This document shows positions 5,493-61,962 of a DNA stretch of 64,000 nucleotides, piece after piece; the first letter of the stretch is position 1; every line of letters starts with the position of its first letter. The position numbers and the translations under genes are program-made. The stretch spans positions 1 to 64,000 of the forward strand of contig NZ_JACYOX010000019.1 in NCBI RefSeq assembly GCF_015352955.1, written 5' to 3'. This DNA is from Noviherbaspirillum soli (GTDB taxonomy: Bacteria > Pseudomonadota > Gammaproteobacteria > Burkholderiales > Burkholderiaceae_D). The notes beneath the pieces are model-generated. The model was not told the origin of the DNA. It searched no databases and saw only the letters and a program-made list of their open reading frames with translations.

Positions 5493-5760
5493 TGCCGGTT
5501 CATGCAATCGCTGTGGTTTCCGTTTTTGGGTGGCTGCATCATGACGCCTTTGAAGGGAGGCGCGACACTGCCCGACGAACGACAATGTTGCGCTGCGTAT
5601 CCAGTGTTGACCATATTGCACGGTTTGGGTTCAATTGCCGTGCGGGCAGATTGGCTGGAAACGGATGCTTAAAATATTTCCTCCAATAATTCATGCCTTT
5701 ATGCATGCCTATTTTTGATTGAAATCGGCGAACTGCTCCAATAGTCGGCTAGAATTCGGT

Positions 5761-5792
5761 TTGCTGCATAGCAGCAATCGTAATCATTACGA
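5761..5792. promoter_or_regulatory. Two adjacent palindromes upstream of phasin gene (PhaR-like operator plus second site)
   Basis: The 321-base gap 5493-5813 separates divergent genes and is AT-richer than its surroundings. Just before the phasin it holds TTGCTGC-ATA-GCAGCAA (5761-5777), which contains CTGC-N3-GCAG, the core bound by PHA regulators of the PhaR/PhbF family. Immediately after comes a second perfect palindrome TCGTAAT-C-ATTACGA (5778-5792), only 21 bases before the start codon. Autorepression by a PHA-sensing regulator is likely; the second site's binder is unknown. Nothing else was recognised in this gap. Confidence 0.6.
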
Positions 5793-5813
5793 TGTTCTTT
5801 TCATGAGGAATCC

Positions 5814-6548
5814 ATGTATCCACTACAAGAACAGTTCAAGAGCGATGCGCTTGCACAGCTGAACTCCCAAGTCCTTCAGGCGGGGCGGATCGCCGGCAAC
5901 CTGCTTGAGATCGGCCACCAGATCGGCGTGCTCAATGTACGCACCGGCAAGGCTTCCGCCGAAGCCCTGGCTGGCGCAGTGCAGAAACTGCTTGCGGCGA
6001 ATAATCCGGTCGAATTCATTCAATTGGCCGCCAACGTGATGCGTCCGGTGCCGCAGGTCTGGACCAATTATGCGGAACAATTGCGCGGCATTGCCGGCAA
6101 GATGGTTGCACCCGTGACACAAGACCTGGTGGAAGCCGCCACGGGAGAAACGCCTTCTGCGCCTTCTGCCGCGCTGGACTTGCAGGGCGTGGTGCCGCCG
6201 GCGGCGCTGGACGCAGCCTTACCGGAACCCGTGCTGCCTGTCGAAGCGCTCGTTCCGCCTAAAACCGAGATGGAAGCTGAAGTTCAGGCCCAGCCACAGC
6301 CCGCCGCCGCTGCCCCATCCGGGGCGGAAGCTGCGACAGAAGTGCTGCAGGCAGTGCAGGAAGTGACGGAAGCCATCAACAATGTGGCCAAGGCTACGCC
6401 GGTAATCCCTGCTGCTGCTACTCCGGACACAAAAACCCTGGCCAGGTCTACGGTGGTACCGAAGGCTGCCGTCAAGGCCAGCCGCGCTCAGCCAATGCAG
6501 AAAACTGCGCCATCAGGCAAGCAGGCCGGCCGTGCAAGGAAATCCTGA
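5814..6548 (+). CDS. Phasin family protein (long form with Ala/Pro-rich tail)
   Basis: Residues 1 to about 110 (MYPLQEQFKSDALAQLNSQV, then NLLEIGHQIGVLNVRTGKAS and ANNPVEFIQLAANVMRPVPQ) form the amphipathic helical phasin domain, which coats polyhydroxyalkanoate granules in the cytoplasm. The rest, to residue 244, is a low-complexity Ala/Pro/Glu/Val tail ending in a basic stretch (KQAGRARKS). Phasins with Ala/Pro/Lys-rich tails are known, and some bind DNA through them, but whether this one does is inference. The start at 5814 follows GAGGA at good spacing. A second phasin lies 187 bases downstream behind its own operator. Confidence 0.85.
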   Translation: MYPLQEQFKSDALAQLNSQVLQAGRIAGNLLEIGHQIGVLNVRTGKASAEALAGAVQKLLAANNPVEFIQLAANVMRPVPQVWTNYAEQLRGIAGKMVAPVTQDLVEAATGETPSAPSAALDLQGVVPPAALDAALPEPVLPVEALVPPKTEMEAEVQAQPQPAAAAPSGAEAATEVLQAVQEVTEAINNVAKATPVIPAAATPDTKTLARSTVVPKAAVKASRAQPMQKTAPSGKQAGRARKS

Positions 6549-57952: not shown

Positions 57953-58031
57953 TCAGAAGGACCGGAAGAGGGTGGCAAGCTTTTTGCAAAGCGGTATTGT
58001 AAAGGAAAGCGCCCCTGCGCTTATCAGACCC

Positions 58032-58664
58032 ATGACCTCCATGACCGATTCGAAACTGCTGCGCATTGTCGTCGTCAATTCCCTGGTTCCCGCCGACGGC
58101 GCGGATGCCGCCGCCATCGAGCGGGCCGAGCGCGCCCGCACGCTGCGCATCAGCCTGCTCGAAGCCGGCTACAACATCCTGGCCGCGCTGCCGCCGGACG
58201 CCAGGCTGCAGGAGCAGATCGCCCACCTGCAGCCGGATGTGATCATCGTCGACGCCCAGTCCGACGCCGCGCTGAAGGAAGTGGTGTCGGCCACCACCAA
58301 CGCGCCGCGGCCCATCATCTGCTTTTCCGAGGACGGCGACCGCGACCGCATGCATGCGGCGCTGGAGGCCGGCGTCTCGGCCTATGTCGCCGCCGGGCTG
58401 TCGGCGGACTGGGTCAAGGCCGTGCTGGACGTGGCGGTGGCGCGGTTCGAGGTCGACCGCAAGCTGCGCGACGAGCTCTCCGAAACCCGCATGAAGCTGG
58501 CCGAGCGCAAGGTGATCGAGCGCGCCAAGGGCCTGCTGATGGAGCGCCACCGCTGCAGCGAGGACGAGGCCTACCGCAAGCTGCGCCGCCTGGCCATGGA
58601 CAAGAACCTGAAGCTGTCCGATGTGGCGCAGCGCATGATCGACGTGGCTGATCTACTCATTTAA
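58032..58664 (+). CDS. nasT: ANTAR-domain response regulator (NasT-like)
   Basis: The 210-residue protein has a receiver domain with Asp74 in DVIIVDAQSDAA, then an ANTAR RNA-binding domain (about 150-205: ERKVIERAKGLLMERHRCSE, DEAYRKLRRLAMDKNLKLSD). NasT-type proteins bind hairpins in leader RNA and stop early termination of nitrate-assimilation operons; the sensor NasS normally holds NasT in check. Here nasT sits alone between tsaD and the nitrate-type ABC genes, and no nasS is in the window. The start is ATG 58032. A GGCCATG/CATGGCC hairpin (58679-58699) may end its transcript. Confidence 0.92.
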   Translation: MTSMTDSKLLRIVVVNSLVPADGADAAAIERAERARTLRISLLEAGYNILAALPPDARLQEQIAHLQPDVIIVDAQSDAALKEVVSATTNAPRPIICFSEDGDRDRMHAALEAGVSAYVAAGLSADWVKAVLDVAVARFEVDRKLRDELSETRMKLAERKVIERAKGLLMERHRCSEDEAYRKLRRLAMDKNLKLSDVAQRMIDVADLLI

Positions 58665-58818
58665 CCGCACCACCGCCGGGCCATGTTCCGGGCATGGCCT
58701 GCACTTTTCCCGCCGCCTTCCTCTTCTTCTCCTTTGAAAACCCGCGCTGTCCTGGTGCGTCGCACAGGCGCAGGGCAAATCACGCCTCGCGGTGAGGCAA
58801 ACCGGTTTTCTACTGTGC

Positions 58819-58834
58819 TGGCATACCAATTGCT
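58819..58834 (+). promoter_or_regulatory. Sigma54 (-24/-12) promoter of the nitrate-type ABC operon
   Basis: TGGCATACCAATTGCT fits TGGCAC-N5-TTGCW with the GG and GC elements ten bases apart, the key feature of sigma54 promoters. Nitrogen-controlled operons commonly use NtrC with sigma54. It starts the leader about ten bases before the first ANTAR hairpin. A near-palindrome CCTGGTGCGTCGCACAGG (58751-58768) could be an activator site, but does not match the classic NtrC form. Confidence 0.75.
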
Positions 58835-58846
58835 GTATGGCAGTGA

Positions 58847-58900
58847 GCGCCAAGGGAGGCGCACAACACGGTAGTGGGTCGCGGCCAATGGTGGCCGCGA
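58847..58900 (+). ncRNA. ANTAR-target leader RNA: two hairpins with A1/G4 hexaloops
   Basis: Hairpin one: stem GCGCC (58847-58851) and GGCGC (58858-58862), loop AAGGGA. Hairpin two: stem TCGCGGCC (58879-58886) and GGCCGCGA (58893-58900), loop AATGGT. Both loops are six bases with A at position 1 and G at position 4, the known requirement for ANTAR protein binding. The nasT gene is immediately upstream. Confidence 0.85.
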
Positions 58901-58921
58901 TCTTATGGGATCGCTCCCGTT
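58897..58921 (+). terminator. Candidate terminator overlapping the second ANTAR hairpin
   Basis: GCGATC (58897-58902) pairs with GATCGC (58909-58914) around TTATGG, followed by TCCCGTTT. Its first arm reuses the 3' arm of the second ANTAR hairpin (GCGA at 58897-58900), so the two structures exclude each other, as expected for antitermination. The T-run is short, so strength is uncertain. Confidence 0.6.
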
Positions 58922-58939
58922 TCTCGACGCAAGGAAGCC

Positions 58940-60193
58940 ATGACAGCCAAAGCAGACAAATCATCATTGACCCGCCGCAGCATGCTCAAGGCGGGCGCCG
59001 CGGCCGGCCTCGCCGGCGCCTTTTCCGCGCTGTCCACCCGGGGCGCCTGGGCAGCCGGCTCGGACAAGCCGGAAAAGGAAGAGGTCAAGGTCGGCTTCAT
59101 TCCGCTGACCGACTGCGCGTCGGTGGTGATGGCATCGGTGCTGGGCATCGACAAGAAGTACGGCATCAGGATCACGCCGTCCAAGGAGGCGTCCTGGCCG
59201 GGCGTGCGCGACAAGCTGGTCAACGGCGAACTCGATGCCGCCCATGTGCTGTATGGCCTCATCTATGGCGTGCACCTGGGCGTGTCGGGCCCGAAGAAGG
59301 ACATGGCGGTGCTGATGACCCTCAATAACAATGGCCAGGCGATCACGCTGTCGAAGAAGCTGGCCGACAAGGGCGCAGTCGACGGCGCATCGCTGGCCAG
59401 GCTGATGAAAGCAGAGAAGCGCGAATACACCTTCGCCCAGACCTTCCCGACCGGCACCCATGCGATGTGGCTCTACTACTGGCTGGCGGCCAACGGCATC
59501 GATCCGATGAAGGATGCCAAGATCATCACCGTGCCGCCGCCGCAGATGGTGGCCAATATGCGGGTCGGCAACATGGACGGCTACTGCGTCGGCGAGCCCT
59601 GGGGCCATCGCGCCATCGCCGACGGCATTGGCATTACCGCCATCACCACGCAGGACATCTGGCGCGACCATCCCGAGAAGGTGCTGGGCACCAGCGCCGA
59701 GTGGGTGAAGAAATATCCGAACACGGCGCGCGCGCTGACCGCGGCGGTGCTGGAAGCAGGCAAGTGGATCGATGCATCGCTGTCGAACAAGAACAAGATG
59801 GCCGAAACAATCGCCGACAAGTCTTATGTGAACACCTCGGTGGACGTGATCAACCAGCGCATTCTCGGCCGCTACCAGAACGGCCTGGGCAAGACCTGGG
59901 ACGACCCGAATCACATGAAGTTCTTCAACGACGGCGCGGTGAACTTCCCCTACCTGTCCGACGGCATGTGGTTCCTGACCCAGCAGAAGCGCTGGGGCCT
60001 GCTGAAGAACGATGTGGACTATCTGGCCGTGGCGAAGCAGATCAACCAGATCGACCTGTACAAGGACGCCGCCGGCATGGCCAAGGTCAGCGTGCCGAAG
60101 GACGCCATGCGCAGCAGCAAGCTGGTCGACGGCGCGGTATGGGACGGCAAGAATCCGCAGGCCTATGCGGCCTCCTTCAACATCAAGGTCTGA
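58940..60193 (+). CDS. ABC transporter substrate-binding protein, NrtA/CmpA type, Tat-exported
   Basis: The 417-residue protein begins with a twin-arginine signal (LTRRSMLKAGAAAGLAGAFS, Arg12-Arg13) and continues EEVKVGFIPLTDCASVVMAS, WPGVRDKLVNGELDAAHVLY and YTFAQTFPTGTHAMWLYYWL, the nitrate/bicarbonate-binding NrtA/CmpA family. It captures the anion in the periplasm for the permease and ATPase encoded next. Start at 58940 follows AAGGAAG. The leader RNA and promoter upstream suggest nitrogen control; nitrate or nitrite is the likely ligand. Confidence 0.92.
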   Translation: MTAKADKSSLTRRSMLKAGAAAGLAGAFSALSTRGAWAAGSDKPEKEEVKVGFIPLTDCASVVMASVLGIDKKYGIRITPSKEASWPGVRDKLVNGELDAAHVLYGLIYGVHLGVSGPKKDMAVLMTLNNNGQAITLSKKLADKGAVDGASLARLMKAEKREYTFAQTFPTGTHAMWLYYWLAANGIDPMKDAKIITVPPPQMVANMRVGNMDGYCVGEPWGHRAIADGIGITAITTQDIWRDHPEKVLGTSAEWVKKYPNTARALTAAVLEAGKWIDASLSNKNKMAETIADKSYVNTSVDVINQRILGRYQNGLGKTWDDPNHMKFFNDGAVNFPYLSDGMWFLTQQKRWGLLKNDVDYLAVAKQINQIDLYKDAAGMAKVSVPKDAMRSSKLVDGAVWDGKNPQAYAASFNIKV

Positions 60194-60221
60194 TCGACCA
60201 ACCGCCAGAACAGGAAACGCC

Positions 60222-61145
60222 ATGAGCGCTGTGATGAAATCCCTCGACCCTGCCAATCCTCTCGCCTCGCCGGACGCGGCGAGCCCGGCCCCCCAGATCG
60301 CCGCAGCAGCCCCGGCGCAGAAGCCCGTGGCCCGCGCCAGGCCGGCCGGCATGTCCCTGCGGCTGCGGCTGCGCGCACTGGCCGGCGTGGTGCTGCCGCC
60401 CATGCTGGGCATGGGCTTCCTGGTGCTGATCTGGCAGATCGTCTCGGTCAGCAGCAGCGGCATCCCGTCGCCCTTGGCCACGCTGGAAGAGGCGGTGAAG
60501 ATATTTTCCGACCCCTTCTACCGCAAGAGCCCGAATGACCAGGGCATAGGCTGGAACCTGCTGGCCTCGCTGCAGCGGGTGGCGGTGGGCTTCGGCCTGG
60601 CGGCCGCGGTGGGCATCCCGGCCGGCTTCCTGATCGGCCGCTTCCGCATCCTGGCCGCAATGTTCAATCCCCTCATCTCGATCCTGAAGCCGGTATCGCC
60701 GCTGGCCTGGCTGCCGATCGGCCTGCTGGTGTTCAAGGCCGCCAACCCGGCATCGATCTGGGCCATCTTCATCTGCTCGATCTGGCCCATGATCATCAAC
60801 ACCGCGGTCGGCGTGCAGCGGGTGCCGCAGGACTACATGAACGTGGCGCGGGTGCTGAACCTGTCGGAATGGAAGATCCTGACCCGCATCCTGTTCCCCT
60901 CGGTGCTGCCCTACATGCTGACCGGCGTGCGCCTGTCCATCGGCACCGCCTGGCTGGTGATCGTGGCGGCGGAAATGCTGACCGGCGGCGTTGGCATCGG
61001 CTTCTGGGTGTGGGACGAATGGAACAACCTCAATGTGCCGCACATCATCATCGCCATCTTTGCCATCGGCCTGGTCGGCCTGGTGCTGGAGCAGGCGCTG
61101 GTCATGTTGGCCCGCGCATTCACCTATGAAGATGTCAAGAACTGA
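60222..61145 (+). CDS. ABC transporter permease, NrtB type
   Basis: The 307-residue membrane protein has a Pro/Ala-rich N-terminal tail (residues 1-45), then about six helices with the permease coupling motif region NVARVLNLSEWKILTRILFP and GVRLSIGTAWLVIVAAEMLT, typical of NrtB/SsuC/TauC. It forms the channel for nitrate uptake with the neighbouring ATPase. It starts at 60222 behind CAGGAAAC, 28 bases after the binding protein gene. Confidence 0.92.
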   Translation: MSAVMKSLDPANPLASPDAASPAPQIAAAAPAQKPVARARPAGMSLRLRLRALAGVVLPPMLGMGFLVLIWQIVSVSSSGIPSPLATLEEAVKIFSDPFYRKSPNDQGIGWNLLASLQRVAVGFGLAAAVGIPAGFLIGRFRILAAMFNPLISILKPVSPLAWLPIGLLVFKAANPASIWAIFICSIWPMIINTAVGVQRVPQDYMNVARVLNLSEWKILTRILFPSVLPYMLTGVRLSIGTAWLVIVAAEMLTGGVGIGFWVWDEWNNLNVPHIIIAIFAIGLVGLVLEQALVMLARAFTYEDVKN

Positions 61146-61155
61146 GGACAGCACC

Positions 61156-61962
61156 ATGGACAACCGTAAATTCATCGATATCCAGGACGCGCAGATGTCC
61201 TTCAACACCCGCAACGGCGTGTTCCAGGCGCTGCAGGACATCAACCTGACCGTGGCCAAGGGCGAATTCATCACACTGATCGGCCACTCGGGCTGCGGCA
61301 AGTCCACGCTGCTGAACCTGATCGCCGGCCTGCTCAAGGCCAGCGGCGGCGCGCTGCTGTGCGCCAACCGCGAGATCGCCGGCCCGGCGCCGGAACGGGC
61401 GGTGGTGTTCCAGAACCATTCGCTGCTGCCCTGGCTGACCTGCTTCGAAAACGTCTATCTGGCGGTGGAGCGGGTGTTCGGCGCCAGCGAGAGCCGCGCG
61501 CAGTTGAAGGAACGCGCCAATGCCGCGCTGGCGATGGTGGGCCTGGCCCATGCGGCGCAGAAGCGCCCGAATGAAATCTCCGGCGGGATGAAGCAGCGCG
61601 TCGGGATTGCCCGCGCGCTGTCCATGGAGCCCAAGGTGCTGCTGATGGACGAGCCCTTCGGCGCGCTCGATGCGCTGACCCGGGCCCATCTGCAGGACGA
61701 GCTGCTGAAGATCGTCGCCCGCACCAGCTCCACCGTGGTGATGGTGACCCATGATGTCGACGAGGCAGTGCTGCTGTCGGACCGTATCGTGATGATGACC
61801 AATGGCCCCGCGGCCACCATCGGCGAGATCTTGCAGGTGGAACTGGAGCGGCCGCGCGAACGGGTGGCGCTGGCGCAGGATGCGCGCTATTCGCAGTACC
61901 GCACCGCGGTGCTGGAATTCCTGTACCACCGGCAGGCGCATCCGGCACGGGAAGCGGCCTGA
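61156..61962 (+). CDS. ABC transporter ATP-binding protein, NrtC/NrtD type
   Basis: The 268-residue ATPase has Walker A at 43-50 (GHSGCGKS), Q-loop VVFQNHSLLPWLTCFENV, signature EISGGMKQRVGIARAL, Walker B VLLMDEPFGALDALT and the H-loop VVMVTHDVDEAVLL. It matches the short NrtD form, without the extra binding-protein domain of NrtC. It starts at 61156, ten bases after the permease stop, completing a nitrate-type uptake operon. The assimilatory reductase genes are not in the window. Confidence 0.93.
   Translation: MDNRKFIDIQDAQMSFNTRNGVFQALQDINLTVAKGEFITLIGHSGCGKSTLLNLIAGLLKASGGALLCANREIAGPAPERAVVFQNHSLLPWLTCFENVYLAVERVFGASESRAQLKERANAALAMVGLAHAAQKRPNEISGGMKQRVGIARALSMEPKVLLMDEPFGALDALTRAHLQDELLKIVARTSSTVVMVTHDVDEAVLLSDRIVMMTNGPAATIGEILQVELERPRERVALAQDARYSQYRTAVLEFLYHRQAHPAREAA

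Follow-up and report, generated by a model that had tools for sequence, protein, structure and literature searches.

The nrtABC leader of Noviherbaspirillum soli: a NasT-class leader that has probably lost its attenuator

Leaders of the ANTAR dual-hairpin class carry tandem hairpins with A1 and G4 in six-base loops and are found with an ANTAR protein and nitrogen genes (Ramesh 2012, PMC3369931; Klebsiella nasF with NasR, PMC7496416). About 30% of the matches reported by Ramesh 2012 in ANTAR-bearing genomes overlap a terminator; for the others, control of translation was suggested (PMC3369931). One question discussed for such leaders is whether the ANTAR dimer spans both hairpins or first sits on a recruitment hairpin and then passes to the antiterminator hairpin (PMC8934654). 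In the NasS-NasT system of P. denitrificans the leader lies between the regulator and the nas/nrt genes, and its hairpin is reported to be needed in vivo (PMC3795266; PMC5424462). There the cytoplasmic NasS, which resembles NrtA, keeps hold of NasT as long as no nitrate is bound (PMC3795266).

The locus described here was found in a stretch of 64,000 nucleotides of Noviherbaspirillum soli DNA, referred to as the window. It resembles the dual-hairpin class in its tandem A1/G4 hexaloops, its ANTAR protein and its nitrogen genes, and the P. denitrificans system in that a leader separates nasT (58041-58664) from nrtABC (58940-61962). The features are:

57973-57988, plus strand: sigma54-like site TGGCAAGCTTTTTGCA, 68 nt before nasT, 10 of 11 positions matched
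58041-58664, plus strand: nasT, ANTAR regulator of 207 aa (PF03861, 81.6 bits)
58744-58758, plus strand: NtrC-like box GCGCTGTCCTGGTGC, 7 of 8
58762-58776, plus strand: second NtrC-like box GCACAGGCGCAGGGC, 7 of 8, with identical letters in the sister genome G002
58819-58834, plus strand: sigma54 -24/-12 promoter TGGCATACCAATTGCT, 10 of 11 to TGGCAC-N5-TTGCW
58847-58862, plus strand: hairpin P1, GCGCC-AAGGGA-GGCGC, 5-bp stem, A1/G4 hexaloop at 58852-58857
58876-58903, plus strand: hairpin P2, GGGTCGCGGCC-AATGGT-GGCCGCGATCT, up to 11 bp, A1/G4 hexaloop at 58887-58892
58897-58914, plus strand: hairpin GCGATC-TTATGG-GATCGC, -8.4 kcal/mol, mutually exclusive with P2; the terminator of the first-pass annotation
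58905-58920, plus strand: P3-like hairpin ATGGG-ATCGCT-CCCGT, A1/G4, 23 nt after the P2 loop
58931-58937: ribosome site (SD) of nrtA
58940-60193, plus strand: nrtA, NasF-type nitrate-binding protein of the NMT1_2 kind, 417 aa, with a Tat-type signal (PF13379, 351 bits; RR motif)
60222-61145, plus strand: nrtB permease, NtrB-type (TIGR01183, above cut-off)
61156-61962, plus strand: nrtC/D ATPase (TIGR01184, above cut-off)

The domain matches agree with the first-pass annotation, a reading of the bare sequence that had placed a nasT-like ANTAR gene directly upstream of the leader and a nitrate-type ABC operon downstream. A search of the genome returned nasT as its sole ANTAR gene. In an alignment of NasT that included EutV, NasR and Rv1626-type chains we read, for the residues with which EutV contacts RNA, equivalents of Arg142, Lys149, Glu160, Tyr164 and Met172 in the window protein; Asn173, Arg175 and Arg177 are replaced by Asp, Asn and Lys. 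Compared with plasmid proteins, the window NrtA had its top scores among the matches listed with Erwinia (65%) and Klebsiella (58%).

The arrangement differs from that of P. denitrificans in that no NasS gene was found and an nrtA with a Tat signal stands in its place. At E <= 1e-5 the sole NrtA/NasS homologue in the genome (a 99.83% complete draft of 105 contigs) is NrtA itself, which bears the Tat-type signal; the cytoplasmic NasS beside NasT that marks the NasS-NasT system is thus missing from the window. A diverged NasS among the PF13379 proteins was also considered and rejected, as the four weaker proteins above the cut-off carry export signals by eye. It had been proposed that NasT lets the polymerase pass a terminator when nitrate is present. 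This would need a NasS, and the genome search gave none.

The -24/-12 promoter proposed at 58819-58834 is present and contains the GG-N10-GC pattern. With GG and GC fixed, the 64 kb hold one further site with at least 10 of 11 matches, at 57973. Such a site (10/11) lies 53-177 nt ahead of nasT in 13 of the 18 loci scanned, the window counted, and we regard the one at 57973-57988 as the probable promoter of nasT itself. A sigma54-type element between nasT and nrtA is common to all 27 relatives in which the two genes lie no farther than 1.5 kb apart, and the Erwinia nasF leader has one as well. The two NtrC-like boxes, 7/8 matches to GCAC-N7-GTGC, which we take to be the NtrC consensus, are positioned at -75 and -57 from the sigma54 element. 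A full box 5' of the -24 element was found in 18 of 25 leaders scanned (23 loci, the window and G002). The sole sigma70-type match, 9/12, lies at 58940 inside nrtA and none within the leader, and it was discarded. NtrC and sigma54 would start nrtABC transcription near 58845, a position that we assume from the spacing usual for sigma54 promoters, so that the RNA would begin at the foot of P1.

Both hexaloops, AAGGGA and AATGGT, were recovered at 58852-58857 and 58887-58892, as annotated at first pass. When stems of 5 or more pairs (4 or more of them GC), A1/G4 loops and a loop spacing of 18-40 nt are required, P1 and P2 are the sole pair on the two strands of the 64 kb, and 5000 dinucleotide-shuffled versions of the leader gave none. 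The leader also folds better than shuffled versions of it (z = -2.65), of which 2 in 200 did equally well, and the 26-nt core of P2 has a predicted energy of -20.3 kcal/mol. The P1 and P2 loops are 35 nt apart; in eutP the loop-to-loop distance is 24 nt (A29 to A53).

A search for related loci yielded 34 NasT loci which, by their titles, belong to genera that we take to be Oxalobacteraceae and to a few more broadly labelled MAGs. In 27 of these nrtA starts no more than 1.5 kb downstream of nasT; in one (L024) it lies farther away and in six there is no nrtA in the stretch. We aligned 22 of the 27 leaders, omitting L003, which is without P3 and terminator, and four near-duplicates of rows kept (L028, L031, L033, L036). 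The aligned leaders comprise a P1 of the type GCGCC-AACGAT-GGCGC, a P2 of the type GGCC-AACGGC-GGTC and a third hairpin, P3 (GGAC-AAAGGC-GTCC). A strong terminator, whose 5' arm overlaps P3, follows and ends in CGCCTTTTTT. RNAalifold recovered this terminator as well as P1 and P2. Over P1, P2 and P3 together 92.7% of the alignment cells are paired, with two-sided changes in 10 pairs, amounting to 42 cells; none of 500 shuffles scored as high, and slid controls were 31-57% paired. The terminator helix is 98.0% paired and shows two-sided changes in 5 of 9 pairs. A1 and G4 are kept in 21 and 22 of the 22 P1 loops, in 20 and 21 of the P2 loops and in 22 and 21 of the P3 loops; loop positions 3, 5 and 6 are variable in P1 and P2. 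When, more strictly, A1, G4 and 3 or more unbroken loop-adjacent pairs are demanded, all three hairpins pass in 14 of the 22 leaders. The loop spacings are 24-36 nt from P1 to P2 and 22-25 nt from P2 to P3 (n = 22). In the relative L005, P3 is predicted at -4.0 kcal/mol and the terminator at -33.9 kcal/mol, so termination should be the default there. P3 and the U-tailed terminator together would thus make the off-state of these leaders.

The covariation that the first-pass annotation had asked for is therefore found in the related leaders: P1 and P2 covary, and A1 and G4 of the loops are conserved. Together with the promoter and the loops this bears out its assignment of a sigma54-driven leader of the NasT/ANTAR class ahead of nrtABC. 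P1 and P2 are accordingly best described as putative NasT-recognition hairpins; conservation and covariation support the class, and NasT binding is inferred.

A leader model that includes P1 and was built without the window (R1) recognizes the window leader with 36.8 bits (E 1.3e-5). Leaders of this class were detected in 90 of 145 Oxalobacteraceae genomes and 91 of 349 Burkholderiales genomes. Across the 145 genomes, which are related and hence not independent, R1 and NasT occur together in 81 and are both missing from 47, while R1 alone is found in 9 and NasT alone in 8. The nine that have the R1-type leader but gave no NasT match at E <= 1e-20 are G028, G060, G082, G100, G115 and G128 (genus group g26) and G041, G101 and G117; they may rely on an ANTAR protein more distantly related to NasT.

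R1 also led to 25 Burkholderiales loci outside the family, of which 12 have at least three hairpins, 10 have two and 3 have none. The 12 span the family groups f5, f14, f21, f25, f27 and f51; because R1 itself contains P1, this count leans towards three. A second leader family lies at least 1.3 kb upstream of nirB and was taken to stand ahead of narK, which is unannotated. Of 18 loci examined, 4 gave no leader with at least two hairpins, and half of the remaining 14 leaders (7/14) have three hairpins with other stems (e.g. GGATC, GGTCC, GGAC) and a T-rich end. The Erwinia nasF leader, which adjoins a 'nitrate regulatory protein' (NasR type), has exactly two hairpins 26 nt apart, the second on the terminator. 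The same holds for the Shinella narK leader, located beside ANTAR and NrtA-family genes (NasTS type), with a distance of 19 nt. The two hairpins are the counterparts of P2 and P3, which makes P1 the extra one. The first-pass annotation had taken P1 and P2 as the canonical ANTAR pair; the Erwinia leader aligns the dual motif with P2 and P3 instead. Other plasmid leaders are harder to read, with one four-pair hairpin each in Paracoccus marcusii and Rhizobium and two each in Methylocystis and Sphingobium.

Most relatives of the window thus depart from the known dual-hairpin leaders by a third hairpin placed farther upstream, and many Burkholderiales nitrate leaders have three ANTAR hairpins rather than two. 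No description of three-hairpin ANTAR leaders was found in the open-access literature searched. Such leaders bear on whether an ANTAR dimer bridges hairpins or moves between them.

Two Rfam families resemble these leaders. The L005 leader (5741-5892) scores 34.7 bits (E 2.3e-5; gathering threshold 43.2) with RF03032, narK RNA, and 34.3 bits (E 2.6e-6; gathering threshold 70) with RF00625, P11. By our own reading, both consensus sequences contain a sigma54-like GGCAC, a CAACG-type hairpin and GAC-AAAG-GTC. At the gathering threshold the whole window has no Rfam match, RF03032 and RF00625 included, and neither of these two matches any of 17 loci, among them L005; the narK-type leader L101 matches neither at E <= 0.01. 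P11 comes from P. aeruginosa and is reported to induce avoidance of this bacterium by C. elegans (PMC10977744). As its model resembles a sigma54-NasT leader with a terminator, P11 may be an attenuated nitrate leader. The leader class itself is known; its three-hairpin form and the arrangement without NasS are variants.

In the genus of the window the second half of this structure is gone. Four genomes were available, three of them with nasT (the window genome, G002 and N. suwonense, locus L003) and one without (G001). Neither P3 (GGAC-AAAGGC-GTCC) nor a U-tailed hairpin is present in the leaders of the window, G002 and L003, and after P2 these leaders are by our comparison about 60 nt shorter than those of the relatives. 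P3 and the terminator thus appear to have been lost in this genus, as judged from three sequences, of which two are closely related. In G002 (nasT 99% and the stretch 94% identical to the window) P1 (AAGGAA) and P2 (AATGGT, stem paired) are retained. That their letters are kept at 94% overall identity may reflect selection, although the differences between the window and G002 are by themselves too few to say. A loss of the A1/G4 loops in close relatives, which the first-pass annotation had named as counting against it, is seen in part: in N. suwonense (nasT 87% identical) P1 keeps them (AATGAT), whereas the P2 hexaloop is lost (ATGTT by eye). R1 gave L003 19.0 bits in a small search and missed it in the family-wide one.

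The hairpin at 58897-58914 exists, as annotated at first pass; it shares six bases (58897-58902), not four, with the 3' arm of P2. Its assignment as a terminator does not stand. It is followed by TCCCGTTTCTC with no U-tract, and it is not homologous to the terminator of the relatives. In G002 the region reads GCGATC...GGGCTTTGC and the hairpin is broken (-0.7 kcal/mol). Compared with P2 (-20.3 kcal/mol) it is weak (-8.4 kcal/mol), so that readthrough should be the default in the window. A terminator scan of the window leader found none; since the same scan also missed the long-loop terminator of L005 it is of little use as a control, and our verdict relies on the alignment and the folding energies. 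We therefore see no credible terminator at this position. The window leader consequently differs from the dual-hairpin class in lacking the P3/terminator half, that is, a downstream hairpin overlapping a mutually exclusive intrinsic terminator. The P3-like hairpin at 58905-58920 is a possible remnant of P3; its loop is retained neither in G002 (CTTTGCT, 7 nt) nor in L003.

NasT itself has been maintained in the line of the window, as judged from a dN/dS of 0.034 between the window and G002 (own Nei-Gojobori script). The ratio is 0.18 between the window and L003 and 0.145 between the window and L005; outside the genus it is 0.039 (L005-L008) and 0.061 (L008-L012). For nrtA the window-L003 value is 0.079. 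Purifying selection on NasT in the line of the window, with a looser phase within the genus, would fit a change of role.

A second candidate target of NasT was found ahead of nirB. The next R1 match in the window genome (17.9 bits, E 0.49, not significant alone) lies about 190 nt upstream of nirB, directly behind a sigma54 site; the two remaining matches are weak (E 0.66 and 0.85). The feature is:

1009-1340 of locus L086 (window genome, contig C83): nirB leader with P2 (GAACCC-AACGGC-GGGTTC) and P3 (GGAC-AATGGT-GTCC) ANTAR hairpins and no visible U-tailed terminator

P2 and P3 with A1 and G4 occur in seven nirB loci, most of them scored poorly by R1: those of the window genome, of G002, and of four genomes of genus group g23 and one of g24 (L091, L092, L094-L096). 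In the 230-nt stretches of these leaders no U-tailed terminator was seen by eye. Six of the seven are without any run of four T, and the one in L096 is not behind a hairpin end. In G001, which has no nasT, a sigma54 site lies 98 nt before nirB, and upstream of the gene no ANTAR hairpin was seen by eye; the hairpin scan, which lists leaders with two or more hairpins, did not report this sequence either. From this comparison of a few genomes, NasT and its hairpins thus appear to occur together, also in leaders that have no visible intrinsic terminator.

Based on these results we propose, with somewhat better than even confidence, that the window carries a derived NasT leader that has lost its attenuator, that nrtABC is ruled mainly at initiation by nitrogen limitation, and that P1 and P2, if they are not a relic, serve NasT in a terminator-independent way, as the nirB leader may. 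As P2 would fold unaided and no terminator follows, the polymerase would, judging by the energies, read through with NasT bound or not. With such unconditional readthrough, nrtABC is probably controlled mainly at initiation, and NtrC/sigma54 is its likely main control. Against this explanation stand the P3-like A1/G4 hairpin that persists 23 nt after P2 and the fact that intrinsic terminators with poor U-tracts can work in some bacteria. The first-pass annotation had instead proposed that 58897-58914 is a working terminator and that NasT, freed by nitrate, holds P1 and P2 so that the polymerase passes. We consider this quite improbable. A hairpin exclusive with P2 does exist, NasT, the sigma54 site and the A1/G4 loops are present, and antitermination is the expected mode in the relatives with P3 and terminator. 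The hairpin has, however, no U-tract, is broken in G002 and is about 12 kcal/mol weaker than P2, and no NasS was found in the genome. With no credible terminator and with P2 outcompeting the candidate, NasT antitermination is therefore unlikely here.

Two further readings concern the fate of P1 and P2; both are variants within the favored explanation, and their probabilities overlap with its own. The leader may simply be decaying, NasT being irrelevant to it and surviving for nirB only. P3 and the terminator are gone in all three genomes, the P2 loop is lost in L003, and the dN/dS of NasT is raised towards L003 (0.18 against 0.039 for L005-L008). This reading is nevertheless doubtful, since the window and G002 retain both A1/G4 loops, and nasT together with a perfect P1 persists in N. 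suwonense even though a search of its genome (G003) gave no nirB match at E <= 1e-150. Rather unlikely, in our estimate, is a role in which NasT binds P1 and P2, and perhaps the P3-like hairpin, near the SD at 58931-58937 and alters translation or blocks Rho, with the nirB leader acting likewise. The seven nirB loci that keep P2 and P3 without a visible terminator would fit such a role, as would the SD, which is partly to largely paired in predicted folds, and the leaders without terminator overlap for which translation control was suggested (PMC3369931). The predicted pairing of the SD varies, however, among the three relatives, the P2 loop is lost in L003 and the P3 loop in G002. Under the favored explanation, that of a lost attenuator, the locus itself is modest, a known leader type minus its switch, and the comparison with its relatives is of more interest.

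In order to see how nitrate might reach NasT in the family, we surveyed its 145 genomes, 89 of which have NasT at E <= 1e-20. The gene right after nasT is nrtA (at least 69% identity) in 48, a NasS-like gene (42-68% identity) in 28 and neither within 1.5 kb in 13, some of which lie at contig ends. The dividing line of 69% was set after viewing the table, and G042 sits on it. None of the 48 nasT-nrtA genomes has a NasS-like gene anywhere at E <= 1e-25, and they seem to make do without NasS. A further homologue of 34-38% identity, left uncounted, occurs in eight of them (G012, G019, G024, G061, G080, G098, G113, G141); its matches begin at query residue 8-24, so the signal region is covered. The RR motif is present in all 18 NrtA N-termini inspected among the 48 (the window and 17 loci). 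It is absent from 17 distinct NasS-like rows, with start sites chosen by script; several of these retain a remnant of the NrtA cleavage region such as GGAWVAGSDKPE. In a quick tree with long branches and odd composition (duplicate loci L112, L116 and L139 omitted), the 17 NasS-like rows of Oxalobacteraceae group in a single clade (SH-aLRT 96) next to 38 NrtA rows (97), with Erwinia NasF outside and the alphaproteobacterial NasS far off on long branches. The single clade lends no support to the idea, also considered, that NasS arose recently and several times in different genera. Taken with the cleavage-region remnants it suggests that the NasS of Oxalobacteraceae is an NrtA copy that lost its signal.

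Tat substrates fold in the cytoplasm before export, so this would be expected of pre-NrtA. It is conceivable, although we hold it to be somewhat unlikely, that NrtA itself does the job of NasS in this lineage and that NasS is a sensing-only copy of it. Nitrate-free pre-NrtA could then hold NasT, and nitrate would release it. A search by title and abstract found no paper on NrtA as a sensor for NasT. If this were true, an NrtA sensor combined with triple-hairpin leaders (two hairpins for recruitment, one as antiterminator) would make uptake traffic the input of an RNA switch. With the NasS-less, nrtA-adjacent genomes (48 of the 89 with NasT) the point of entry of the nitrate signal can be tested directly.

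In genus group g30 (L153, L133, L159) a NasS-like gene that has an R1-type leader comes after nasT. Behind the NasS-like gene stands an nrtA with a second leader in L153 and, judging by gene positions, in G032. This looks like a tandem copy of leader and nrtA, the first copy minus its export signal.
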